From assembly GCF_004364345.1 (NCBI RefSeq), contig NZ_SOCA01000007.1:62001-126000 (forward strand): 64,000 nucleotides of DNA, written 5' to 3'. Below, one piece after another: positions 12,810 to 38,075 of the stretch. The translations under genes and the position numbers were made by a program. Position 1 is the stretch's first letter. The number at the start of each line of letters is the position of its first letter. Origin of the DNA: Prosthecobacter fusiformis. Its GTDB lineage: Bacteria > Verrucomicrobiota > Verrucomicrobiia > Verrucomicrobiales > Verrucomicrobiaceae. Under the pieces are notes generated by a model. That model was not told the origin of the DNA. It ran no database searches and saw only the letters and a list, made by a program, of their open reading frames with translations.

Positions 12810-14210
12810 ATGAAAATCACTTTCTGTGGCGCGGCGGGCACGACAACAGGGTCAAAACATCTCATCGAGATCAATGGCTCGCGGATCCTGCTGGATTGCG
12901 GCCTCTACCAGGGGCGGCGGAAAGAGGCGATGGAAAGGAATGCGGACTTTCCTTTTGATCCCACTCAGGTGGACTGTGTGGTGCTGTCTCATGCGCACAT
13001 TGATCACGCCGGTAATCTGCCGCACCTCTACAGGAAGGGATTCTCGGGGAATATTTATTCGACCCCGGCGACGAGGGATCTGTGCAGCATCATGCTGCCA
13101 GATGCGGCGCACATTCATGAGAGCGACATCGCCTGGCTCAACAAGCACCGGAAGCGGAATGACCTGCCGCTGCTGGTGCCGAACTACACGAAACTGGATG
13201 CGGAGGAAGTGATGCACCAGTTTGTGACGGTGGGCTATGGGCGGCCGATGCACATCGCAGATGGGGTGACGATGTCTTTCATAGATGCGGGACATATCCT
13301 GGGGAGTGCGCAGGTGGTGCTGGATCTGGAGGACCATTTGACGAAAAAGAAGTGCAGACTGCTCTTCAGTGGTGATGTGGGACGGCCGGGGAATGATCTT
13401 CTGAATGGAGCCATGCCGTGCGCGGATGTGGATTATGTGATCATGGAGAGCACGTATGGCGGGCGGCACCATGAGCTCGCGGCGCAGACGTCCGAGCACA
13501 TCTGCCACCTGATCCGTGAGATCCATGAGCGGGGTGCGCGGATGATCATCCCAGCCTTTGCGGTGGAGCGGACGCAGCAGCTTCTTTATACGCTGGACAA
13601 GCTGCGTGCGGAGAACTGCTTCCCGCCAGTACCTGTGTATGTGGACAGTCCGCTGGCGGTGAGGGCGACGGAGATCTTCCGCCTGCATATTGAGGACCTA
13701 AAGCCGACGGTGAGGGATGCAGTCTTCATGCGGGATGACCCGTTTGGTTTTGAGGGGCTGCGGCTGGTACGAAGTGTGGATGAATCGAAATCGCTGAACT
13801 TTCTGAAGGGGCCTGCGGTGATTATATCGGCCTCAGGCATGGCGGAAAGCGGGCGTATTTTGCACCATTTGCGGAACAACGTCGGCAACCCAGGTAACAT
13901 CCTTTTGTTCGTGGGTTACTGCGCTGAAAACACGCTTGGATGGAAACTGCGCAACGGCCACAAGCGAGTGAACATTTTGGGCGATGAATTCCAGGTCAGG
14001 GCGGAGATCGAGACGCTGGATTCATTCTCAGGTCATGCGGACCATGAGGAACTGCTGGCCTACTTTGACCGGATCAGTGGACCGAAGCGCCGGGTATTCC
14101 TAGTGCATGGGGAGCGCGAGCGGTCCGACGTTTTGTGCAAAGCCCTGGCTGAGCGGCATCCGGGCGGCACGGTGGAGGTGGCCAACCTGATGCAGACGGT
14201 GGAGCTGTAG
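12810..14210 (+). CDS. MBL-fold metallo-hydrolase with beta-CASP domain (RNA-processing exonuclease type)
   Basis: A 466-residue metallo-beta-lactamase-fold protein of the beta-CASP/CPSF-73-like group. The zinc motif HAHIDH is at residues 61-66, a second metal-binding segment DAGHILGSA follows, and the C-terminal RNA-specificity region includes SFSGHADH. Family members cleave or trim RNA using two zinc ions. Length and domain order are normal. It is divergent from the cytochrome gene, with a spacing of about 120 bp that must hold both promoters, and convergent with the Verru_Chthon cassette. Confidence 0.9.
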   Translation: MKITFCGAAGTTTGSKHLIEINGSRILLDCGLYQGRRKEAMERNADFPFDPTQVDCVVLSHAHIDHAGNLPHLYRKGFSGNIYSTPATRDLCSIMLPDAAHIHESDIAWLNKHRKRNDLPLLVPNYTKLDAEEVMHQFVTVGYGRPMHIADGVTMSFIDAGHILGSAQVVLDLEDHLTKKKCRLLFSGDVGRPGNDLLNGAMPCADVDYVIMESTYGGRHHELAAQTSEHICHLIREIHERGARMIIPAFAVERTQQLLYTLDKLRAENCFPPVPVYVDSPLAVRATEIFRLHIEDLKPTVRDAVFMRDDPFGFEGLRLVRSVDESKSLNFLKGPAVIISASGMAESGRILHHLRNNVGNPGNILLFVGYCAENTLGWKLRNGHKRVNILGDEFQVRAEIETLDSFSGHADHEELLAYFDRISGPKRRVFLVHGERERSDVLCKALAERHPGGTVEVANLMQTVEL

Positions 14211-14247: not shown

Positions 14248-17200
14248 TTATTTGGGACCAAATTTGGTGCTGCCCAGGACGCGGAAGCGGTAATACGCAT
14301 CCAGGGTGGCGGTTGGGGTGGTGGCGAAATCTGGCAGTGCAGGATCGGCCGGGTCCACGTAACGTTCCAGGATGGAGGAGCCACGGTTCTCGGCTATCAC
14401 GAGATCTTTGCCCTCCTCCCAGGTAGCCCAGGCAGCGGCATCGCTGCCACGACTGCGGGAGGCCTGTTGCAAGGCCTGCACCCGGTAATGTACGCGGTAG
14501 GTATTGGACTTGGTGGTGAGGCGAGGATACAGGGTAGCATAGGGATGCTCACGGGCATTGTCAGCGGTGAGTTTATGGGCCTGCCAAAAGGCGGGCATGT
14601 TATCCAGCGTTGTCTGTTCCGGCACCAGATACAGTTCGCAGATCTCACTGGCACTGCGGAAAATGTCACCCGCATCAAAGCGCTGTGTGAACTGTTTCAG
14701 GGTTTCATCGGCATTGATCAGGTAACGATAGTTGGTCGTGGTGGTGGAGCTTTTGTAAACATTGGCCGCTGTGGTGGGCACGGCAAAGACGCGCTCACTG
14801 CGCAGCAAGGCCCGCAGCCCCGTTGTCCGCTCGATGTAAGTGAAGGGGACGATCTGGTGGTTCATATTGATCTTTCCTGCGGTCGAGAGAGGCTCGCTGA
14901 TGGCATAAGGCTCCACCACGGGCATCCAGAACAGGTCTAACAAAAGATGATCTAAAGGAGCCTGGGCTCCAATATGGACACCACTCGTGGCATCCGGACG
15001 GAAGAGAAGGGTAGACCAGGGGACGCCAGCTTTGACCCGGTTCGGCAGGGAGCCAAACATCACGGGAGAAGGGATTTGCCGATTGGGAGAAAAGAAGGTG
15101 GGTCCGGTGGTTTCATGCGCTTGGTTCGCATCGAAATAAGGGACACCTGAGTTCTCCCGATAGCTGTTTCCTTCGTCAGGTTTGTTGATGTAAGCGCCAT
15201 CCATCACTGTAGCGACGCCCGTATCCCAGTCCCCTGTGGCCTCAGCCAGGGAGAGTGCGGCAACGGGGATGTCAGGACGTTTGGCACCGTTGTAAGCAGC
15301 GCCGGTCACGAAACTGCCCGCCTGATTATCGGCTCCTGGTGTGTAGTTGCTGCCGCCGCCTTCCTGGAGGTTGTTGGCGTTGAACTGGGAGGTGTTATCA
15401 TAATAACGATGCTTGATGAAGATGTCAGCAGGCGGATTGGTTTGTGCCGCCAGGAGACGATGATCTCCATGCCCCACGACCATGGTGCGAATGACGTCAC
15501 TGGGCGCGGCGGAGTTGTAGTGAATGACAGAGCCTGAACGGGTGGTGGTGCGTGTGCCGGGATCTGCCTGCGCACGGTGGATGCGGCCTGCCACGGCAGC
15601 AGGGACGGCCGTGGTGCCGGTGAAGGTCTGGAAGCCAGCGAGAGCTCCATCACGAGAGAAGCTCCACCAAAATTCACGCTTGGTATCCACGGATTGTGTG
15701 TCGGTGGTGGTGGCGTTTGCGGCTGTGGTGCTCATGACCAAACGTGGTACTGGGAAGGTGCCGGCGGCCAGCCTGACGGTGAGGGTCTGCACGGGCGTTT
15801 GTCCTGCCACGGGGTCCACCTGACCACTTGTGGGATTGGAGTCAGAAAAGATTTCAATGGTGATCTCACCGCCGTTGAACTGCATGGTGGAAGCATCGCC
15901 ATTGGGAACGGAGATTGTGATAGGCATGCTGACAAAGGGATAAGAATTGTTGGCACTGTGGCCTGAGTCTGCAGGCATCACGCCACGGGCTGGCAGGCGG
16001 CGGCTATTCAGCATAAAACGGAAACCTGCATTGCCACCCCACATGCGGCTGTGATAACCGCCGTTGGATTCGATGCGCAGGACACCTTCAGATGGGAAAC
16101 CCAGGGAAGTGCCATTGACGGTGAGATTTTGCAGACCACGAATGCGTATCTGCATGTCTGGCCGCAGGGAGCCCCAGCCTTGGCTGGGAGAGAAAGCTTC
16201 AAGCAAGAGCAGAGCCTCAATGCGGCGTTGATTCGACGTCAATTTCACTGCCGAGGTGCCACTGCCCAGAGTGCGGTTGGTGGGTTTGGTTTCCGTCTGG
16301 CCGATGTTGTCTGCGGGGACCACATTGCTATCCGGGACATTAAAATCCGCCGTGGTGATGAAGTGCATTCCCACCTCAGTCAAAGTGAAGAAGCGGCCAA
16401 AACCTTTGGTGTCGTTGATGCGGATGGGGGTCACCTGGCCATGTCCAGGCAAAGCGCCGGTTTTGCTGGAGCGTCCATTTGTGAACTGATTGCCGCTGGT
16501 GGGATAAACGAGAGGTTGAGGTTCGATGGTGTCATCAAACAAATTGGTGCTGCGGATGTAATCGAACATCTCTGTGAGGATCTGATCACGGTCCGTGCCA
16601 TACTTGGTGGAGAAGTTTCCGCCATAACCGGGAATAGGCCTTGAAGTGAGACTCTGCAAATAGGTGTAGAGTTCGACATTCCGGCCCGCAAAGTCGTCGG
16701 TGGCACTGTCCGCATTGATCCTGTCGAAGATGTAGTTTTTTCCCCCTACTTGGGAGCAAAAAGCAATGAGCTGGTCAAAAGGACTGCGGTGGGTGCTGGC
16801 CGTGTTTTGACTCACGGGCCAAGCCGCGATGCGAGGCTGGTTGAAGAGGTTTACTTCTGGCGCGCGACTGTGCGCTGTGACGAGGAAACGTGCTTGCTCC
16901 AATTGATCGGGTGTGATGACAGAACTTTCCCGCTCGTTGTTAAAGATGAGTTCATCTTCATAAGCATAGAGACGGTCTGCATCCAGAGGCACCGGCTCCA
17001 GTGCGAGGGTAGTCCCACCCAATGAGCCACCCAGACCGATACGAGAGCTTATTTGGGTGATGTCTCCACGGGTTAGGCTGGGGAAAGCCGCGCTGAGGTA
17101 AGTGGCCGCAGGGTGGCCTGGATAACGTTGATATTCACGCTGGGCAGGTTGGAAATCCGCCAGTGCCTGACGGTCAAACTGTGTGGTGACGCGCGGCAAG

Positions 17201-18039
17201 TCCCAATATGATCCGGCATCCATGTCCGAGGTGGAGGTCCAGTGATCCCCTGCGGCGGTATTGATGTTGATCTTGCTGGTTTCGTCATCGGTCCAATAAG
17301 CGACGCGGCCCACGATGGGATTGGTTTCGCTGGGTGCATCCGCAGCGCCAGCTTCCCAAACGACTTTGTCTCCCTGGCCATCGGCACCGGGGACGGATTG
17401 GGCGGGGGAGGTGAGGCGGCCATCCCGCAGCACATACAGCCAGCGCACGGGCATAGGGGCGGGATTGGCATCCGCAGGCGGGGTGCCGCCAGCACTGGCG
17501 GATGGAGGCGTGTTAACAGCGAGACCGGCGGGGGACTGGGTGGCAGGGCTGCCCGGGGCAGCAACCGGTGGTGGCTGAAAGATGGGATAACGAAGCTGGC
17601 CGTTCAGGGTGGTGACGGGACGGTTCAGATCCGTGTAGAGAGCATCGTTATCACCCCAGCCTGGCAGGACGTCATCGGCAGGATTGAAGGCTCCGTCTGC
17701 CACATTCCAGACCAGATTTTTGGCGGAGTATAACTTATAGTATCGCAGCGGGCTGCTGGCAGCATTTCCCTCCGTGGTGCCATAGGTGCGGATCATGCCG
17801 GGCTGGGATGCCCACGCGATTTCCTGCCCCTGAGAGGTGGCATCGCGGATCTGGCTGGTGACCAGGGCATTGACGGTGTCAATAAGTTCACGGCCACGGG
17901 TGCCGGCATCGGTGCGCTTGGCCACTTGCGTCTCTGTGCTGACGGTGGTGAGGAAGGCGATGATGAGGCCGGTGATCAATGCCAGGAAGGCAATGACCAT
18001 GACGAGGGCGACTCCGCGGCGGGGAGGGGCGGTTTTCAT
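14248..18039 (-). CDS. Verru_Chthon cassette protein A (TIGR02600), GspK-like
   Basis: A 1263-residue protein. The N-terminus is a short basic leader (MKTAPPRRG) and one hydrophobic helix (ALVMVIAFLALITGLIIAFL), like a type IV pilin-like leader but without the Glu at position 5 of the mature form. That lack is a hallmark of GspK/PilX-type minor pseudopilins at a pilus tip. The rest is a large exported domain with the DETSKININ segment also seen in GspK-like proteins. I chose the ATG at 18039 because it places the leader correctly; an ATG at 18102 would overlap the preceding gene by 16 bp. It is the last gene of the D-B-C-A operon. Confidence 0.85.
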   Translation of the reverse strand: MKTAPPRRGVALVMVIAFLALITGLIIAFLTTVSTETQVAKRTDAGTRGRELIDTVNALVTSQIRDATSQGQEIAWASQPGMIRTYGTTEGNAASSPLRYYKLYSAKNLVWNVADGAFNPADDVLPGWGDNDALYTDLNRPVTTLNGQLRYPIFQPPPVAAPGSPATQSPAGLAVNTPPSASAGGTPPADANPAPMPVRWLYVLRDGRLTSPAQSVPGADGQGDKVVWEAGAADAPSETNPIVGRVAYWTDDETSKININTAAGDHWTSTSDMDAGSYWDLPRVTTQFDRQALADFQPAQREYQRYPGHPAATYLSAAFPSLTRGDITQISSRIGLGGSLGGTTLALEPVPLDADRLYAYEDELIFNNERESSVITPDQLEQARFLVTAHSRAPEVNLFNQPRIAAWPVSQNTASTHRSPFDQLIAFCSQVGGKNYIFDRINADSATDDFAGRNVELYTYLQSLTSRPIPGYGGNFSTKYGTDRDQILTEMFDYIRSTNLFDDTIEPQPLVYPTSGNQFTNGRSSKTGALPGHGQVTPIRINDTKGFGRFFTLTEVGMHFITTADFNVPDSNVVPADNIGQTETKPTNRTLGSGTSAVKLTSNQRRIEALLLLEAFSPSQGWGSLRPDMQIRIRGLQNLTVNGTSLGFPSEGVLRIESNGGYHSRMWGGNAGFRFMLNSRRLPARGVMPADSGHSANNSYPFVSMPITISVPNGDASTMQFNGGEITIEIFSDSNPTSGQVDPVAGQTPVQTLTVRLAAGTFPVPRLVMSTTAANATTTDTQSVDTKREFWWSFSRDGALAGFQTFTGTTAVPAAVAGRIHRAQADPGTRTTTRSGSVIHYNSAAPSDVIRTMVVGHGDHRLLAAQTNPPADIFIKHRYYDNTSQFNANNLQEGGGSNYTPGADNQAGSFVTGAAYNGAKRPDIPVAALSLAEATGDWDTGVATVMDGAYINKPDEGNSYRENSGVPYFDANQAHETTGPTFFSPNRQIPSPVMFGSLPNRVKAGVPWSTLLFRPDATSGVHIGAQAPLDHLLLDLFWMPVVEPYAISEPLSTAGKINMNHQIVPFTYIERTTGLRALLRSERVFAVPTTAANVYKSSTTTTNYRYLINADETLKQFTQRFDAGDIFRSASEICELYLVPEQTTLDNMPAFWQAHKLTADNAREHPYATLYPRLTTKSNTYRVHYRVQALQQASRSRGSDAAAWATWEEGKDLVIAENRGSSILERYVDPADPALPDFATTPTATLDAYYRFRVLGSTKFGPK

Positions 18040-18086
18040 AAGCTGGTTGGGGGGAGAGGGAGAACTAAAGTGAATGTGTGGCCGGT

Positions 18087-19124
18087 TTACTCGCGGCTCC
18101 ATTTGGCGCTTTTCAGACTGACCTGGGTGGTAAAGACGCGGGCGTTCAGTTGTTTTGCCCGCAGGTTTTTCAACAGTGTTTCGAGGTCGGCTTTACGTAT
18201 TTCGGCATCGGCATTTTGGAAGAGATCTGCCAGACCGAGATCTGGCGGCTCGCTACTGCCGCCGATGCGCTCAGCGGAGGCGTCATCAATGGCCACCATG
18301 GTGACCTCCACGATGGGCGGAAGCTGGTGCTGGCTGCTGAGTTCCTTGCGCAAGCCTCCTTGCCCCTCGGTGAATGAGTCAAACTCATAGTTAGGCGCGA
18401 GGGCGCTGCCGGTCGGGTCCACTGAAGGGTCCCCAGCAGGGCCTTGGCCTGGCAGCTTAGGCAGGAAGGTGATGGCGATGATGTTGCGGGCGATGATGTG
18501 GGCATCCGGGTTGGCGGCGACATCCGGCGGCCAGCGCTCTGGCCCACCCAGGGGGACGAGGGATTCCGAGCGCTGTTTCAGCTCCATCAACCGGAATCCA
18601 TAGGTGGGGATCAGGGGCAGGAAGGACGGGCGCTCAGTGTCCTCGCCATACGTGATGTAATAGCCGGTGAGATTGAGCAGATGATGGAGCGCACCATGGG
18701 TGGGGATGCCAGTTTCGCCCAAAGGGGCGTAGAAGAACAGGGCATGTCCGGGCGTCTGGGCAGGGGGTTGCTGCAGGATGGCTGCGGCGGCTCCGCTGCG
18801 GAAGCGCAGTTCAGAATATCGGCCATAGCGGCCTGGCTCAAAGCTGGCCGCATTGGTCTGGTCACGCCGTGCGCCGGACTTGTCATAGTAATCCAGGTAA
18901 GTATTGAGCGTGGCCTGGGACAGATTGCGGGTGATGGTTTCAAAGGCATCACGGGCTTGCTGGAACTGGCTGACCTTCCCCCGGGTGCTGCGCCAGATGC
19001 TGGCCGTGCGGTCAGTCATGGTGGCAAAGATGAGCATGAGGATGGAGATCACAGCCATGCTAACCAGAAGTTCCACAAGGGAAAAACCTGGTCGGGCCGA
19101 TCTGGTTGGGAAACGGTTTTTCAT
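18087..19124 (-). CDS. Verru_Chthon cassette protein C (TIGR02599), GspJ-like pseudopilin
   Basis: A 345-residue protein with a class III signal (RPGFSLVELLVSM), cleaved after Gly by a prepilin peptidase with Glu at mature position 5, followed by one helix. The long C-terminal domain fits the Verru_Chthon C family. By size and order in the operon it corresponds to GspJ of type II secretion. Its ATG overlaps the TGA of gene B by four bases, so translation is coupled. Confidence 0.85.
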   Translation of the reverse strand: MKNRFPTRSARPGFSLVELLVSMAVISILMLIFATMTDRTASIWRSTRGKVSQFQQARDAFETITRNLSQATLNTYLDYYDKSGARRDQTNAASFEPGRYGRYSELRFRSGAAAAILQQPPAQTPGHALFFYAPLGETGIPTHGALHHLLNLTGYYITYGEDTERPSFLPLIPTYGFRLMELKQRSESLVPLGGPERWPPDVAANPDAHIIARNIIAITFLPKLPGQGPAGDPSVDPTGSALAPNYEFDSFTEGQGGLRKELSSQHQLPPIVEVTMVAIDDASAERIGGSSEPPDLGLADLFQNADAEIRKADLETLLKNLRAKQLNARVFTTQVSLKSAKWSRE

Positions 19125-19645
19125 AGGTTTTTAGCAACGTGCCCGGTAAAGGCGGTGAAGTTGAATCCGGAATCAGGCTGGATGGTTCCTTCCGGCGGAT
19201 CAGCGGGACCTCCAGGTGCAGTAGTGATGGGGATGTCCCGGTTTTCTGCATTGAGCGCTACCTGAACGATGACGGTGGCGAGGTTTGGCTGCAAGGTGCC
19301 GCCAGCAGTACCGGAGGGGATGCTGGTGGAGGGCTGGATGCGGATCAGTGCATGAAAGATGGCTCCGGTAGCATCAGGCAGCTCACTGCCTTCATCATCA
19401 AAGTAGCGCCAGGGCTTGGTGGCCGGAGGGGCGACCAGGACTGAATAATCCGTCTGGGCAGACTCATATAAAAGGCGCTGGCCGATCTGCGCGGTCACGC
19501 TGGTATTCATGGCCTCGCGAAAGGTGCTTAGGCCCGCAGGCAGCAGGCCGATCATGAGGGTGATGGCAGCCGCGGCAATGCCGATGGCTACCATCACCTC
19601 AACCAGGGAGAACCCCTGGCGGGCATGGGGGGGGAGGGATTTCAT
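19121..19645 (-). CDS. Verru_Chthon cassette protein B (TIGR02598), GspI-like pseudopilin
   Basis: A 174-residue protein with a class III signal (RQGFSLVEVMVAIGIAAAA) and a small exported domain. It is a minor-pseudopilin-like protein that corresponds in order and size to GspI/PilV. It lies 31 bp downstream of gene D and overlaps gene C by four bases. No strong Shine-Dalgarno sequence is seen before the ATG at 19645. Confidence 0.85.
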   Translation of the reverse strand: MKSLPPHARQGFSLVEVMVAIGIAAAAITLMIGLLPAGLSTFREAMNTSVTAQIGQRLLYESAQTDYSVLVAPPATKPWRYFDDEGSELPDATGAIFHALIRIQPSTSIPSGTAGGTLQPNLATVIVQVALNAENRDIPITTAPGGPADPPEGTIQPDSGFNFTAFTGHVAKNL

Positions 19646-19676
19646 GGGAGAATCGGGGTGGTTGAACCCGCTGAAA

Positions 19677-20414
19677 TTAGGGAGTGAAGGAGCGGACGGT
19701 GCCGCGTGTGGGCTTCACCTGGACGGTCACGTAGTTCGCTGGCGGGGACTGCCGGGCATTGCGTGAATGGACGGTGAGGAACCATTCCTGCTGGGCGTCC
19801 AGGTCGGTGCTGCCATCTGGAAGGAAGCGAACGCGATAGGCGGTGTAGTCTGTCCCGGCGTCTGGCAGGGGCTTTTGTTCATCGCCTTCTTTCCAGTCGG
19901 TTTTGATCCGGGCATCCGTGATCAAAGTGGAGAGGGTGGCATCTTCGCTAATTTTTACTGCAGAGGGCAGGCGGCGGACTTCGCGTACGGGCCGGGCCTC
20001 CGCATTGTCCTGGTCAAAGATGAATGCCTGCACGGCACTTACGCCAGGGGATTCACCGAAAGAATTCGGGGCGGTGGATTTATAAAAGCGTACCTCAACG
20101 ACGCGGTCCCGCACCTGAGCGGTGTGGCGGGCCAGTTTCAGCTCATCGGAAACCATTTCACCGGCTTGACTGATCTGGTTGGCTTCCACCACGTCATTCG
20201 CCACGTTGGCGGTGAGGGACATAAGGACAGCTACCAGCGTGAGTACGGCCAGGATTTCGATGAGGGTGAAGCCCTGTCTGCGGCGGCGCGCCGGGGGGCC
20301 AGCAGGGAAGGTGAGGCCTGGATGTCGCTTCGCATCATGAGGTGCAAGTGACGGAATGGTTTCACGGAGAATTGGATTATTCACCGCCCGGCTTGTGTCA
20401 TGAGTTGTGCTCAT
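19677..20414 (-). CDS. Verru_Chthon cassette protein D (TIGR02596), GspH-like pseudopilin
   Basis: First gene of the cassette, 245 residues from the ATG at 20414. An unusually long basic leader (about 48 residues ending RRRRQG) precedes the class III signal FTLIEILAVLTLVAVL. The exported domain begins with the GspH-like DELKLARHTAQ helix region. Upstream in-frame codons extend the frame to 20498, but no start there is better. The spacing to the divergent leuS gene is about 270 bp, and promoters for both are expected there. Confidence 0.8.
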   Translation of the reverse strand: MSTTHDTSRAVNNPILRETIPSLAPHDAKRHPGLTFPAGPPARRRRQGFTLIEILAVLTLVAVLMSLTANVANDVVEANQISQAGEMVSDELKLARHTAQVRDRVVEVRFYKSTAPNSFGESPGVSAVQAFIFDQDNAEARPVREVRRLPSAVKISEDATLSTLITDARIKTDWKEGDEQKPLPDAGTDYTAYRVRFLPDGSTDLDAQQEWFLTVHSRNARQSPPANYVTVQVKPTRGTVRSFTP

Positions 20415-20684
20415 GATATACTTTGTAAATACCTGGCCTGATTGGTTCAATATAAAAATGATTTTTGCTGGTGTTATTATGACTTTGTGCAATATCAAAG
20501 AAAGATTTGGCTAAAGTCGGCGGAGGAAACCCTTTAGGGGGTAGATCTTGACCTGTGAAAGTAGGCCTTTTTGCTTTTGACAATCCGCAGGCAGGTGGGT
20601 GTTGAAATCTTTGCGCTGGACGTAGGTGACACTGCAACTCCTCGGTTGCGAAATGCCCCTGGTGCGCCTTCTTGCGCGCCCCGT
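20415..20684. promoter_or_regulatory. Divergent intergenic region, cassette D / leuS
   Basis: A 270-bp spacer between two divergent genes. The half next to cassette gene D is AT-rich (about 20415-20515), as expected for a promoter, but no single -35/-10 pair stands out. I see no leader peptide with a run of leucine codons and no clear attenuator before leuS. Confidence 0.35.
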
Positions 20685-23285
20685 ATGAGCAGCGAGCAGC
20701 GTAAAGCATTTCCTTTTTCCGAATTTGAGCCGAAGTGGCAGTCCGAGTGGGACGCCAAGCAGGCTTTCCGTACGCCGAACCCCGGCGATGCGGATTTTGA
20801 TGCCTCCAAGCCGAAGTTTTATGTGCTCGATATGTTCCCGTATCCGAGCGGTGCAGGGCTGCATGTGGGGCACCCGGAAGGGTATACGGCCACGGACATT
20901 ATTGGCCGCTATAAGAAGATGACAGGTCACAACGTCCTGCACCCGATGGGGTGGGATGCTTTTGGCCTGCCCGCTGAGCAGTATGCTATCAAGACCGGCC
21001 AGCATCCGCGTGTGACGACGGAGGCCAATATTGACGGATTCCGTGGCCAGCTTAAGCGCCTGGGTTTCGCCTATGACTGGAGCCGTGAGGTGAACACCAC
21101 GGACCCGGGTTATTTCAAATGGACGCAGTGGATCTTCATGAAGCTGTATAACAGCTATGTGAATGCAGAGGGCAAGGCAGCTCCTATCAGCGAGCTGGAA
21201 GCGCAGGGACTGAGCCGCGCGGAGATTGACGCCCGCCGCCTGGCCTATGTGAGCGAGGCCCCGGTGAACTGGTGCCCGGAGCTGGGCACCGTGCTGGCCA
21301 ATGAAGAGGTCATTGATGGCAAGAGCGAGGTTGGAGGATTTCCGGTGGAGCGCCGTCCGCTGCGCCAGTGGATGCTGCGCATCACGAGCTTTGCCCAGCG
21401 TCTGATTGATGAACTGGATGGCCTGGACTGGCCGGAGAGCATCCGCCTGCTGCAGCGGAACTGGATTGGGCGCAGTGAAGGGGCGGAGGTGAAGTTCTCC
21501 CTGGTCGGCAATGACCAGACCGTCACTGTATTTACGACGCGGCCGGACACGCTGTTCGGAGCAACTTACATGGTCATTGCTCCCGAGCATCCGCTTGTGG
21601 AGGTGATCACCACACCGGAACAAAAAGAGGCCGTGGCTGCATATCAAAAAGCCGTCGGCTCTAAGTCCGACTTGGAGCGCACGGAGCTGGCCAAGGACAA
21701 GACTGGCGTCTTCACGGGTGGTTTTGCCATCAATCCCGTCAATGACGAGAAGATCCCTGTGTGGATCGCCGACTATGTCATGATGGGTTACGGAACTGGG
21801 GCCATCATGGCCGTGCCCGCGCATGATGAACGGGATTGGGAGTTTGCTACCAAGTTCCATTTACCCATCCGTGAGGTGGTGGCGGCTGCGCCGAAGCTGG
21901 AAAGTGAAGGAGGTTCTGTTTGTGAGATGGAACCCGCAAGTTGCTTCGCCAGTGCAGGTTTCGCAGTGAATTCTGGTTTTCTGAATGGCATGGCGACACC
22001 CGAAGCCAAAAAGAAAATGGCCGCCTGGCTGGAAGAAAAAGGCCTGGGCAAGGCGATGGTGAACTTCAAGCTGCGCGACTGGCTTTTCAGCCGTCAGCGG
22101 TATTGGGGGGAGCCGTTCCCGATTGTGTGGGAAAACGGCGAGCACCGTTCCATCCCGGAGACGGAGCTGCCACTGCTGCCGCCGACGCTGGAAGACTTCA
22201 AACCGAGCGGCACGCCTGAGCCACCGCTGTCCAAGGCGACCGACTGGGTGAAGTATTCTGAAACCGCCACGCGCGAGCTGAACACGATGCCGCAGTGGGC
22301 AGGCTCGTGCTGGTACTACCTGCGCTATTGCGATGCGCAGAATAACCAACGATTCGTCAGCGAAGAGGCGGAGAAATACTGGATGGGCGGTGGCAAGCCC
22401 GGCGGTGTGGATCTTTACGTCGGCGGCACCGAGCACGCTGTGCTGCACCTGCTGTATGCTCGCTTTTGGCACAAGGTGTTGTTTGATCTGGGCTACGTGA
22501 GCACGCCGGAGCCGTTCCAGCGTCTGGTGAACCAGGGCCTCATCATGGGGGAGGACGGCCAGAAGATGTCCAAGAGCCGTGGCAACGTGGTGAACCCGGA
22601 TGACGTGGTGAAGGAATACGGTGCCGATGCGCTGCGCCTGTATGAGATGTTCATGGGCCCGCTGGAGCAGGTGAAACCGTGGAGCATGAAAGGTGTGGAA
22701 GGCGTGTATCGCTTCCTGGCCCGCGTGTGGCGTCTGGTCATGGAGCAGAATGCCGAGGGCGAGTGGAGCATCTCCGCCGCGCTCCAGGATGTGCCTGCGG
22801 AAAAGGTAGTGACCAAGGTCCTGCATGAGACCATCAAAAAGTGCGGCGAGGACATCGAGAAGCTGAGCTTCAACACCGCAATCGCGCAAATGATGGTGTG
22901 CACGAATGCCTTTACCGCTGCGGCCACAAAGCCGGTGAAAGAGATCGTCACCTTCCTGAAAGTGCTCGGACCGTTTGCCCCGCATCTGGCGGAGGAACTG
23001 AATGCCCGCATTGCAACCAAGTTTGCCGATGTTTCCGTGAAGGGTCTGCTCAGTGATGAAACGTGGCCAGCCTATGATCCTGCCGCCCTCATTGAAGACG
23101 AAGTGGAAATTGTCTTCCAGGTGAATGGCAAGCTGCGTGACAAGGCGCGCGTGGCCATCCAAGCCACCAAGGAGGAGATCGAAAAGATCGCCCTCGCCAG
23201 CCCCCGCGTGCAGGAGTTCATGGAAGGCAAGCCCATCAAAAAGCTCATCGTCGTTCCCGGGAAACTGGTGAACATCGTCGTCTGA
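20685..23285 (+). CDS. leuS: Leucyl-tRNA synthetase
   Basis: An 866-residue class I synthetase that charges tRNA-Leu in the cytoplasm. The HIGH motif is HVGH at residues 60-63 and the KMSKS loop lies near 627-631. The CP1 editing domain sits between them (about 230-430), and an anticodon-binding and C-terminal domain ends the protein. Length is typical for bacterial LeuRS. I chose the ATG at 20685 because the family begins with this [11 protein letters not shown]-type segment; upstream in-frame codons to 20571 look non-coding. A clear terminator follows at 23364-23410. Confidence 0.97.
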
Positions 23286-34327: not shown

Positions 34328-34588
34328 GTGTCAATACCGGTGGAAGTGACAGAGATGCCGGGAGAGCAGTCATCCGTAATAGGACGTGTGCGCAGGTCTG
34401 TGGCTACCAGAGGTGAAATTCTGGAATTAATTCATTGTTATCATGAAGAGAACCCGGCTGGCAATCCCCGAAATCCATTGAGTGAAATGAGCCTCTCTTT
34501 TGTGCTGTTCGAGCACCCCGGATGGTTAAGGAGGATAAAGGATTATTTAGGTGGGAATTCGTTGGATGGTGATGAGAAACGTGTGTAA
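34328..34588 (+). CDS. Possible small hypothetical protein
   Basis: An 86-residue frame from a GTG at 34328; an ATG at 34355 is also possible. It includes a helical segment (RGEILELIHCYHEE) and a hydrophobic-charged tail. There is no recognised domain and no convincing ribosome-binding site. It ends just before the large Ig-fusion gene. It may simply be an open frame in the upstream region of that gene. Confidence 0.25.
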   Translation: MSIPVEVTEMPGEQSSVIGRVRRSVATRGEILELIHCYHEENPAGNPRNPLSEMSLSFVLFEHPGWLRRIKDYLGGNSLDGDEKRV

Positions 34589-34616
34589 ATACACCATCGA
34601 TTTCTTACGTGCTCAC

Positions 34617-37600
34617 ATGGATTTTAAACTGTCTCTCCGCCACTGTGCTTCACCTCTACTGCTAGCATGTGTTTGGGGCGGTTTTCTACCCGCGCAGGAT
34701 GTTCCTCGGTTGTCCCTCAGCCAGGTTGGTCTTCATTTCATTTGTACGGCGGATGGCCAGCCGGATATGTATAGCTGGCGTCATCCGGTAAAGGATGTGA
34801 GACCTGGCTCAGCACCAGAAGATTATTTGATCCCCGAAATTGCGCTAGAAGATTTGGATAGTTCCCTCAATGTCAGTGGGGGGAGGACAGCATTGAGTGT
34901 GGAGCCTTATAATGGTCAAGGATTTGCCATTGCGCATGACGTGTTCAGTGGATTTTATGGGCAAGAGGAAGAAGCTCGCCTGACCAATGGAGAGGCCGTT
35001 CATTGGACGGAACCAGGGAAAGGCGAGAATACCTTCAAAAAGAGGTATTATTCCAATTTTCCTCCCTTGTCCGGATCACCCGTAATGTATGGGATTGTAT
35101 CCGATTTCTCAGGTGTGGTTGGGGACTCTCAGTATGGTCGGACCCGGCGAGTGCACCCAGGGTATAATCCATACAACTGGAACTACACACTGGATTATAA
35201 TGTCCCCTTGACGGTTAATCAGAAGCGCATACAAGCGATGCTGTATCTGCAATTGCATCATGCGATAACAACGGATGCCGATAAGAATTTTGATTTCACC
35301 TTTGTAATTTCAGGTGCGGATCTGGGCTCAGTTCGTGTTGATGGGCAAGCCATTTTTGCCAAGGCATCCGATTATGTTTTTCAAAGTCAAAAGGCACTTT
35401 TTGAAACAGCTGATCAAGGAACTCTGGGTGGATTTGCGGACTCTCAAAAAATAGCCCGTGGACGGTACGCTCAGGGGCGGCCTCCGATGCCGGCTGATTC
35501 AGGTTATATAACCAATCTAAACTCGAGTACTTCTTTGTTACTGAATTTAAACCTATCATCGCTCTACTGGACGATGAATAGAGATGAGATTCTTGATTTT
35601 AGTTCCGAGCTCATCACGCTGGCGGTTTATTCGGGAAATCTTTCACTGAGTTCATTATCAACGGTACAACCAGTTCAGATCATTTGTTTTAAACTGCCTG
35701 ATGGACGAGCGCCGGCACCGGATTTGGTGACGGTGGGCACATACCCTGTACACGGCTTTAACGCAAACGGGCTGCCTTATCATAAGCCGTGCCTACAGGC
35801 TCCTCATTGGTGGAGCTTTAACTCTGACGGAGCAATTGGGCGTCCCTATGGTTCTCAATCAAATACAGCTCTGCGTGGTCGCTATGCAAACTTTTCACAG
35901 TGGAATTGGGACAAATTTTCAGTAAATTCCTCGGATCCCTTTGCTCCACAAGATGGTTACAGACAACGAGTCCCTGGTGGTAATTCCCTTATCTATGGCT
36001 ATGATGAGAGGCTGTATCCAGATGTGCGGAAAGTGCCTGTAGCGGAACTCATAGCTGATCCTTTAAAGCGCATCGAATACCAGGCCCCCCGTTACAATAT
36101 GCCGCTGCATTTTGGCACGGATACGCTGCGCACATTATCTTACGTGCATGATTTAACCCCGAAATTGTATGTGGAAGATTCGGATTTTACGCCGCATCCC
36201 TCATACAATGATGTCGGAGTGCATTTGGCATATGCATCAGCGTATGATCCTCCTCAAATCATTACCCCCCCTCAGGCCCAAAGTCTCCAAATCAAAGGGC
36301 CGGTGTCTATGTCAGTCGAGGTTTCAAGCTCGACCCCGGTAACCTATCAGTGGCGATTTAATGAGGACCCCATCCCGAATGCGAATGGTCCAAATTTCGA
36401 AATGGAAATGGCGGAAAAAGCTCAGGAGGGTTCCTATGATGTAGTTGTGACCAATTGGAAGGAGAGTCTCATTTCTGAGTCGGTGGAGCTGATTGTACAC
36501 GATCCGGTGATTGTTACTGACCCGGTCTCTAAATCGGTAGCCGTAGGCGGGGCAGTCACGTTTTCAGTATCTGCCGAAGGGGCAGACTTGACCTATCAGT
36601 GGCGCCGTAATCATCTGGCTATCCCGAATGCTGTTTCAAAGAATCTGGAGCTGTCTCGGTTGAAGTTTACTGACGAAGGACTTTATGACGTTATCGTGAC
36701 GGGCAGGCATGGTCAGGTTATTTCGCAGCCTGCTAACCTGACGGTTTTCGCACCTCTGGCCATTGTGCAACAGCCAGTGGGAGGCCGTTTGCGATTGGAG
36801 CGCAGCATGACCTTGAAGGTGAATGCCGTGGGAGAGATGCCCATCCGTTATCAATGGTGGAGGGGTAGTGAAATGATCGCAGGTGCAGAGACTGCCGAGC
36901 TGCTGGTGACAGCTACGGATGAGGATGACGCTGCAGGATTTTACAAAGTGGTGGTGACAAGCCCTCAAGGTAGCGTCACATCTAAAACTGCCGAGGTGGT
37001 AGGAGTGGACTATCCGCCAGTCATTACCTTGCATCCTGAAGATCAGATTGTGGGGGTGGGTCTGGCGGCCAGCTTCAGCGTGGAGGCGGAAGGTGAGTCC
37101 CTTCGCTATCAGTGGCGGCGAAACGGGGTTAATATAAGTCGGGCCAATGCTGCATCTTATGTGATCCCCCAGGTTAAAAAGACCCACGTTGGCATTTATG
37201 ATTGTGTGATCAGTAACAATGAAGGCAACACTCTCTCCCGGTCTGCTGAGCTTTCTTTGCCTGTAAGTCTTTCTTTCACCCGCCTGCCTGAGGATCAATT
37301 CGTCACAGAGGGAGAAAATGCAATTTTTAAAGCCTTGGTGGTCAGTGAAGGCGAAAAGGTGACCTATCAATGGTCTTTTAATGGAAAGGTCATTTTAGGA
37401 GCCATTTACCCAGAGCTAACGGTACATGATACCAGTCCTGAGCTAGCGGGCGTTTATAGCGTCGAGGCTTCAAAGGGGGGAGAAAAAGTCACTGCGTCGG
37501 CTCTGCTAAAAGTGCGCGAGCCAGGCATGCTTGTTTATAAAATCACAGGCACTGGTCAGACGGTCGTCGGCAGCACAAATACGCGGGTAACGGTGACGGG

Positions 37601-38075
37601 TTACTTGCTGCTGGAGCAGATGCCCCAGGGGTTAAATGGGGCTCTCATTATAGTTACCAAGGATGGTCGGTACAGCCGCTACCATGTGCAGCGCCTGGAT
37701 CATCTGCGCTTGGATTCTACGGGCCCTTCCTTAAAGACTCAGAGCGTCATCAGCAGCGTTGCAGAAGGTACGGAGGAATCTCCTTTTCGTTCTTTGCTAT
37801 GGCTGCAAGGTGCCGATAGCCTGATTGTTCTGTCGCCCACAGTGAAGACCCTGGGACCTAAAACTCTTTCCGGCACCGCTAACCAAATGAGCATGCTGAG
37901 GGTTGATGGGCCGTCAAAAACCACTCTAGAAACACTGAGCCTAAAAGCTGCCCTAGACATCACAAGCAGCGCCGTGGCGCGCCAAAACTCCGAATCTTTG
38001 GACGGCACCCTAGAACGACTGGTTGTGGACTTACAGGTAAAAGGATATTTGGAGATGGCTGAAGAGGAACCTTGA
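34617..38075 (+). CDS. Secreted protein: Verru_Chthon cassette A-like region plus five Ig-like domains
   Basis: A 1152-residue protein. It starts with a conventional signal peptide (about 1-27, ending FLPAQ) rather than a pilin leader. Residues 32 to about 535 follow the exported part of cassette protein A in the same motif order: VGLHFICTAD, LTVNQKRIQAM, MPADSGY, WWSFNSDGA and DTLRTL match VGMHFITTAD, LTSNQRRIEAL, MPADSGH, WWSFSRDGA and DVIRTM. Five Ig-like repeats (about 541-968) follow, each with a YQWRRN- or YQWSFN-like core strand, then a C-terminal region of about 185 residues. I infer a surface or secreted adhesive protein. I chose the ATG at 34617. The gene is visibly more AT-rich than its neighbours. 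Confidence 0.7.
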   Translation: MDFKLSLRHCASPLLLACVWGGFLPAQDVPRLSLSQVGLHFICTADGQPDMYSWRHPVKDVRPGSAPEDYLIPEIALEDLDSSLNVSGGRTALSVEPYNGQGFAIAHDVFSGFYGQEEEARLTNGEAVHWTEPGKGENTFKKRYYSNFPPLSGSPVMYGIVSDFSGVVGDSQYGRTRRVHPGYNPYNWNYTLDYNVPLTVNQKRIQAMLYLQLHHAITTDADKNFDFTFVISGADLGSVRVDGQAIFAKASDYVFQSQKALFETADQGTLGGFADSQKIARGRYAQGRPPMPADSGYITNLNSSTSLLLNLNLSSLYWTMNRDEILDFSSELITLAVYSGNLSLSSLSTVQPVQIICFKLPDGRAPAPDLVTVGTYPVHGFNANGLPYHKPCLQAPHWWSFNSDGAIGRPYGSQSNTALRGRYANFSQWNWDKFSVNSSDPFAPQDGYRQRVPGGNSLIYGYDERLYPDVRKVPVAELIADPLKRIEYQAPRYNMPLHFGTDTLRTLSYVHDLTPKLYVEDSDFTPHPSYNDVGVHLAYASAYDPPQIITPPQAQSLQIKGPVSMSVEVSSSTPVTYQWRFNEDPIPNANGPNFEMEMAEKAQEGSYDVVVTNWKESLISESVELIVHDPVIVTDPVSKSVAVGGAVTFSVSAEGADLTYQWRRNHLAIPNAVSKNLELSRLKFTDEGLYDVIVTGRHGQVISQPANLTVFAPLAIVQQPVGGRLRLERSMTLKVNAVGEMPIRYQWWRGSEMIAGAETAELLVTATDEDDAAGFYKVVVTSPQGSVTSKTAEVVGVDYPPVITLHPEDQIVGVGLAASFSVEAEGESLRYQWRRNGVNISRANAASYVIPQVKKTHVGIYDCVISNNEGNTLSRSAELSLPVSLSFTRLPEDQFVTEGENAIFKALVVSEGEKVTYQWSFNGKVILGAIYPELTVHDTSPELAGVYSVEASKGGEKVTASALLKVREPGMLVYKITGTGQTVVGSTNTRVTVTGYLLLEQMPQGLNGALIIVTKDGRYSRYHVQRLDHLRLDSTGPSLKTQSVISSVAEGTEESPFRSLLWLQGADSLIVLSPTVKTLGPKTLSGTANQMSMLRVDGPSKTTLETLSLKAALDITSSAVARQNSESLDGTLERLVVDLQVKGYLEMAEEEP

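Follow-up and report, generated by a model that had tools for sequence, protein, structure and literature searches.

A probable orphan tip complex of minor pilins, capped by a giant GspK-class protein, in a Verru_Chthon gene cassette of Prosthecobacter fusiformis

A four-gene cassette in Prosthecobacter fusiformis probably encodes a minor-pilin tip complex of the GspH-GspI-GspJ-GspK (H-I-J-K) class, in which proteins D, B, C and A would take the places of H, I, J and K, respectively, A would form a giant cap, the tip would be interchangeable, and the filament machine would be encoded elsewhere. The cassette is a variant of known tip sets, distinguished by its orphan, multicopy status and by an unusually large K subunit. 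The window that was analysed comprises 64,000 nucleotides (positions 62001-126000 of contig C7) of a host genome of 5.83 Mb that is 99.9% complete. Its D, B, C and A genes encode Verru_Chthon cassette proteins, all scoring above the NCBIfam cut-off (TIGR02596, 4.5e-37; TIGR02598, 2e-17; TIGR02599, 5e-91; TIGR02600, 5e-296). A search of one literature library under the Verru_Chthon cassette names found no paper on the function of the cassette.

The D and B genes (Table 1) are separated by 31 nt, B and C overlap by 4 nt, and C and A either overlap or lie 47 nt apart, according to the A start chosen. The probable A start at 18039 gives MKTAPPRRG/VALVMVIAFLALITG (a slash marks the cut), and the ATG at 20414 within the D frame 19677-20498 (minus strand) gives a protein of 245 aa, alongside 174 aa for B and 345 aa for C. 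Prepilin leaders with a glutamate at position 5 after the cut (Glu+5) are present in D, B and C, and the N-methylation motif is the only match above the cut-off in a Pfam scan of these three proteins. The leader of A (TAPPRRG/VALVM) is of the GspK/PilX type, with Val-Ala-Leu-Val-Met after the cut and without Glu+5. Nothing credible was found when A was scanned against Pfam: there was no N_methyl match and, up to E 10 in a scan whose filters drop weak matches, no T2SSK match. The preliminary description had reported exactly this division of leaders, GFxLxE-type in D, B and C and lacking Glu5 in A, and it holds both in the window and among relatives.

Table 1. Coordinates of the cassette, its motifs and flanks in the window, and of proteins found directly after giant GspK-like proteins at diverged loci.
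Feature	Sequence	Coordinates	Strand	Description
D (TIGR02596)	window	19677..20414	minus	GspH-class minor pilin (putative); leader RRRRQG/FTLIEILAV
B (TIGR02598)	window	19121..19645	minus	GspI/PilV-class minor pilin (putative, weaker); leader HARQG/FSLVEVMVA
C (TIGR02599)	window	18087..19124	minus	GspJ-class minor pilin (predicted); leader SARPG/FSLVELLVS
A (TIGR02600)	window	14248..18102	minus	putative giant GspK-class capping subunit, 1284 aa
GspK-type motif in A	window	17254..17292	minus	TDDETSKININTA; DE..K.N.N pattern
Second motif near A C-terminus	window	14860..14880	minus	AGKINMN; pattern AGKIN[MLI]N
Leucyl-tRNA-synthetase-like gene	window	20571-23285	plus	cassette flank; label from sequence reading
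Metallo-beta-lactamase-like gene	window	12810-14210	plus	cassette flank; label from sequence reading
Secreted-looking protein after giant	L140	4709-5458
Secreted-looking protein after giant	L141	2700-3458
Secreted-looking protein after giant	L143	4911-5588
Secreted-looking protein after giant	L144	9325-10113
Secreted-looking protein after giant	L147	10009-10842
Secreted-looking protein after giant	L151	8459-9148
Secreted-looking protein after giant	L153	3322-3987
Secreted-looking protein after giant	L154	7906-8463
Secreted-looking protein after giant	L156	3191-3862

When genome contigs were scanned with the four A copies of the host, 80 loci were obtained, each from Verrucomicrobiota by title; together with five host loci they made a set of 85, in which B, C and D were located with profiles made in this analysis. 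Up to eight cassettes occur per genome among the loci returned, with one metagenome-assembled genome (MAG) contributing eight of the 80 and Verrucomicrobium sp. BvORR034 six. The fifth host locus (L042, 3871-11128, contig C5) is a diverged D-B-C-A set whose 1491-aa A-like protein is barely detected by TIGR02600. All four genes are present at 65 of the 85 loci and are co-oriented in 64, the exception (L122) having B-C-D on the opposite strand; ten of the 20 incomplete loci lie at contig ends. When leaders were scored across the whole collection, Glu+5 was found in 62/63 D, 67/68 B and 69/69 C proteins and in only 2/80 A proteins (counts that omit 5 A, 4 D, 1 B and 2 C rows in which the site is weak or absent), a pattern that is not due to chance. 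One of the two A proteins with Glu+5 comes from a locus (L105, 1552-7439) in which D, placed N-terminally, and A share one open frame, representing either a real fusion or a MAG assembly error.

Gene order proved far less constant than gene content. The complete co-oriented sets are arranged as B-C-D-A (23), A-B-C-D (16), B-C-A-D (15) or D-B-C-A (10), counted after weak extra D matches had been read out; B adjoins C in every complete set, whereas A, last in the window, is last in 33 of the 64. On a FastTree phylogeny of A, in which the window copy falls in a D-B-C-A clade of five, these orders require at least 12 changes, compared with 26.6 for shuffled labels. That the four genes stay together in changing orders speaks for a functional set, and the same variation makes order unfit as proof. 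The preliminary description had equated D-B-C-A with GspH-GspI-GspJ-GspK on the basis of order: the correspondence stands in this window but carries little weight as evidence given four orders among relatives, and we dropped gene order as the main argument for an H-I-J-K set. That D-B-C-A is a minority order also counts against our preferred reading. What survives of the original proposal is the class of the four proteins, for which the predicted fold of C, the profile and motif of A and the GspH likeness of D now provide the evidence.

C is predicted to adopt the GspJ fold. Profile comparisons (hhalign) used GspK, GspJ and GspI references of Verrucomicrobiota from 30 loci, one of which was dropped, plus the host clusters; GspJ was the best match of C, with a score of 94 versus 66 and 35. 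A structure model of C built with 59 sequences (pLDDT 90.8, pTM 0.84) retrieved Thermus Tt1219 as the best Foldseek match (E 1.4e-3), a protein that its authors call GspJ-like in passages of PMC5131608, followed by EpsI:EpsJ entries (0.055). With a second aligner, the top ten matches in the PDB were all of the GspJ class (Z 10.7-10.0, next 4.9), and the match covered model residues 38-336 with no other pilin class among the top rows. These entries are 3cfi, 6utu, 5vtm, 5g23, 2ret, 3ci0 chain J, 5g24, 9a1f, 5bw0 and 3nje; from chain names and lengths we take the matched chains of multi-chain entries to be the J subunits. The preliminary description had staked its proposal on a GspIJK-like fold being predicted, and for C a GspJ-class fold is predicted.

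D appears to be GspH-like: the GspH model detects the window protein (1e-7) and, at E 0.01, 51/53 of the aligned family, although the window score of 32 bits against a cut-off of 80 makes it GspH-like rather than an annotated GspH, and the hhalign set contained no GspH reference. A GspI/PilV-like identity for B is more weakly supported. The window protein matches XpsI (1.2e-5), the family matches PilV (29/57), XpsI (25/57) and GspI (13/57) among outside models, and hhalign places GspI first with GspJ nearly equal (62 versus 59 and 29).

Protein A agrees with the GspK class, the one suggested in the preliminary description, in its leader, N-terminal profile and internal motif. The GspK model NF037980 matches residues 29-100 of the window copy at 3.7e-5, with 23.4 bits lying far under the cut-off of 130. 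An hhalign comparison of A with 32 classic Verrucomicrobiota GspK proteins gave 94.8% over 77 columns, versus 2.9% for GspJ, 3.6% for GspI and 3.4% for reversed GspK, so the N-terminus of A appears to be specific to GspK rather than to GspJ or GspI. The motif DE..K.N.N, located approximately 200 residues into A, is present in 67/67 A proteins and 9/32 classic GspK proteins (for example, ADETGKLNLN) and in 0/201 J, I, B, C and D rows, with shuffled sequences giving 0.2-1.3%. The second motif (AGKIN[MLI]N) occurs in 33/67 A proteins and is present in all four host copies.

A structure model was made from an A homologue of 1,180 residues (L053) with 67 sequences (pLDDT 86.7, pTM 0.89). It consists of an N-terminal helix of 62 residues (5-66), three short strands, a very large middle region and three strands near the C-terminus. 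The strands at the two ends may together form one pilin sheet, into which the giant middle would be inserted. Fold searches with the whole of A (Foldseek and the second PDB aligner) mainly covered a beta domain at residues 511-806, with matches near Z 4 and none above 4.1; no pilin or GspK was among the rows of these searches, which barely tested the pilin part, and this result weighs against the preferred reading. Against PDB sequences, the profile A2 found no match at E 10, most matches of A3 and A5 were to generic pilin N-termini, and A4 also gave chance-like matches to unrelated proteins.

A sceptical reading is that the likeness extends only to generic prepilin N-termini, and that the cassette encodes four unrelated surface pilins and no H-I-J-K complex. 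Profile matches do stop after the first helix: once the N-terminal 40-80 residues were removed, an hhalign comparison of the ectodomain profiles found no match of A, B, C or D to classic pseudopilins. This confinement to 40-80 residues is also a point against the tip complex itself. Yet the GspJ match of C spans residues 38-336 of its model, A, C and D each favour a different member of the set, the GspK motif of A lies well beyond the first helix, and the set holds together through several rearrangements. We therefore regard four unrelated pilins as very improbable.

An orphan tip complex depends on machinery encoded elsewhere, and the preliminary description would have failed in a host without a prepilin peptidase or assembly ATPase; the genome encodes one such peptidase and yields seven full-length T2SSE matches, along with four shorter ones and eight secretins. 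Among the neighbouring genes read beside the host cassettes, no ATPase, F, G or secretin gene was seen. A dispersed core is found at two other places: a locus on contig C1 carries two GspE/PilB ATPases, GspF/PilC and a GspG-like pilin, and a locus on C7 carries a GspM-like protein and a GspD-like secretin approximately 28 kb before the cassette. In the 16-18 kb read around each core locus, none of the H, I, J and K genes was seen. The cassettes and the dispersed core fit each other as two halves and may be linked. Against this stand three classic host clusters with GspK-model matches, each having its own H-I-J-K-like genes that the dispersed machine could use, and the weak outcome of a co-occurrence test between dispersed machine parts and cassettes, in which a single family member besides the host had a clear G homologue and the L-like matches included classic T2SS clusters.

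The set might instead prime a type IV pilus for adhesion or twitching, as the equivalent of FimU-PilV-PilW-PilX and with A as a tip adhesin, rather than a secretion pseudopilus. H-I-J-K and FimU-PilV-PilW-PilX are listed as equivalent sets in a table of PMC7248040, outside matches of B are most often to PilV, ComGE and ComGF match 55 and 42 of 59 C proteins (GspJ, 28/59), and the four shorter T2SSE matches are sized like retraction ATPases. This possibility nevertheless seems rather unlikely to us. At E 1, PilX_N retrieves nothing from the host genome, whereas A is matched by the GspK model; outside matches of D are most often to GspH; and the parts of the dispersed machine score as GspG, GspM and GspD. 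The lack of PilX_N and the scores of the machine lead us to favour, from these sequence comparisons, a T2SS-like over a type IV pilus system.

Comparison with described systems places the cassette close to the H-I-J-K set of type II secretion, in which there are likewise four prepilin-class proteins of which only the largest lacks Glu+5, occurring in the same order as in this window; the predicted GspJ fold of C and the GspK-like N-terminus and motif of A add to the resemblance. Absence of Glu+5 is a published mark of the tip-capping subunit, as stated in passages of PMC10191384 and PMC5207764. The cassette differs in having no machine genes, several copies per genome and four gene orders, and in the size of A, approximately four times the classic GspK length (1,284 aa, with host frames up to 1,796 aa, versus approximately 290-415 aa for the GspK proteins read here). 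Sections of PMC7541494 describe three minor-pilin/PilY1 clusters (FimU-PilV-PilW-PilX plus PilY1) that share a single machine in Myxococcus xanthus, and point out that Glu5 is absent from both GspK and PilX. That arrangement shares with the cassettes several tip clusters for one machine and a large tip partner, but there the large part is the separate PilY1, whereas the large part of the cassette is its own K subunit, and PilX_N is unmatched. ComZ of Thermus thermophilus, an organism that also has GspI-like and GspJ-like pilins (PMC5131608, in part), is a pilin of GspK-like fold that carries a large inserted domain and is proposed to sit at the filament tip; its insert is a beta-solenoid of approximately 380 residues and it serves a competence pilus (as described in portions of PMC6561018). 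Modular pilins similarly bear extra modules. Judging from an excerpt of PMC8179133, the survey of these covered only IPR012902 N-terminal leaders, with 860 residues as the most extreme case; A-type proteins probably fall outside it, because the IPR012902 motif was required and A gives no N_methyl match.

Genes beside the cassettes point to a candidate client for one cassette type. A giant repeat protein directly precedes two of the four host TIGR02600 cassettes: one (L036) has beta-strand repeats and a PEP-CTERM match, and the other (L037) has delta-60 and beta-strand repeats. Across the 85 loci, with near-duplicate strains not collapsed, ORFs with beta-strand repeats occupy 13/152 immediate neighbour places versus 9/717 farther away (Fisher p 1e-5), and 12 of the 13 are co-oriented with the cassette. 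The L037 type, giant-A-C(-D), is kept in the host and in the five congeners in which its A was found among 18 other relatives searched (6/6), even though the giants, read in part, share only 33-42% identity. This fixed linkage makes the giant a candidate client of that cassette type alone. B was seen in none of the six copies (one contig ends inside C), which counts against the preferred four-subunit tip. A repeat protein as universal client was considered and dropped, given that only 22/85 loci have one in the DNA examined. The remaining immediate co-oriented neighbours are mixed, with MFS (4), LacI (3), GH130 (2) and GH28 (2) among 61 scanned; 68 had been picked after omitting giants of at least 1000 aa, eight near-duplicate loci and L042, and seven of these were then omitted.

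Of 17 repeat proteins in the host, only two lie next to a cassette; ORF reading and profile searches revealed no cassette near the remaining 15, in stretches that miss some flanks of the largest. Giant frames with beta-strand repeats, 5189, 5813 and 6173 aa long, lie in host regions C13 1115-33777 and C6 256044-267965, with no cassette found in the adjoining stretches read. Within the window, an ORF at 34551-38075 (plus strand) encodes 1174 aa with a signal-peptide-like start and Ig-like repeats resembling those of the giant neighbours. Its residues 54-561, which precede the repeats, align with the middle of an L037-type A (residues 709-1246 of the aligned copy; 38.5% identity, 5.5e-90), and the protein appears to be a chimera of a tip module and a repeat protein; no such joining was seen in the 18 relatives searched.

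These observations bear on a further alternative, in which A would act chiefly in surface adhesion or binding, on a borrowed GspK N-terminal anchor, with B, C and D serving only to carry it and with no dedicated client. Such a role would suit the size of A and its divergence (36-54% identity to the L053 copy), the recurrence of its module in a signal-peptide protein with Ig-like repeats, the precedent of pilins with grafted binding modules (in parts of PMC8179133 and PMC6561018) and the lack of a giant repeat neighbour at most cassettes. It accounts less well for a giant-A-C(-D) linkage preserved in every congener copy despite the divergence of the giants, or for the enrichment of repeat proteins immediately beside cassettes, and we hold it to be possible but doubtful.

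Under the preferred reading of an interchangeable tip complex, the inner membrane would receive D, B, C and A by export, the only prepilin peptidase of the cell would cleave all four, and their N-terminal helices would hold them together. For want of Glu+5, A would fit only at the top of the filament, which it would cap with an ectodomain of approximately 1,100-1,700 residues. The complex would then prime a filament whose major pseudopilin and motor come from other loci, in all likelihood those of the host's dispersed T2SS-type machine. Several cassettes per genome would make the tips interchangeable, and at least one cassette type would probably serve the adjacent giant repeat protein. We infer this assembly order, tip position, use of the dispersed machine and client relation from the evidence given above.

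Giant GspK-like caps appear, from profile matches, to extend well beyond the named family. TIGR02600 scores over its cut-off in 3/144 genomes of the phylum and matches at E 0.001 in 81/144, these matches falling mostly on the first 60 model positions, with most of the matched frames being 700-1,500 aa long. In 18 regions chosen from such matches, D-B-C-A was found in four, B-C-A in one and C-A in one, and the D-B-C-A order may therefore be old. At nine of these 18 diverged loci, a secreted-looking protein of 185-277 aa, a possible partner, directly follows the giant (Table 1). A genus of the same order has lone giant GspK-like proteins of approximately 1330 aa (L148, 3867-7850; L150, 3807-7835), and also a version of 322 aa that shares their leader (L149, 6032-7000); no B, C or D was seen beside these three.

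More tentatively, Verrucomicrobiota may follow a principle of 'one motor, many tips', in which a T2SS core without minor pseudopilins is primed by several orphan cassettes, the GspK-class ectodomain picks the cargo or surface target, some cassettes serve an adjacent giant, and such caps occur phylum-wide. If this speculation were true, giant GspK-like caps (700-1,500 aa frames) would be a phylum-wide class that was overlooked for want of the Glu5 signature. The tip-complex reading offers a testable role for four named but unexplained protein families, and pseudopilus tips may perhaps be swappable as modules. Tips that are specific to a cassette and lie beside a constant giant neighbour would lend themselves naturally to studying how the T2SS chooses its cargo.
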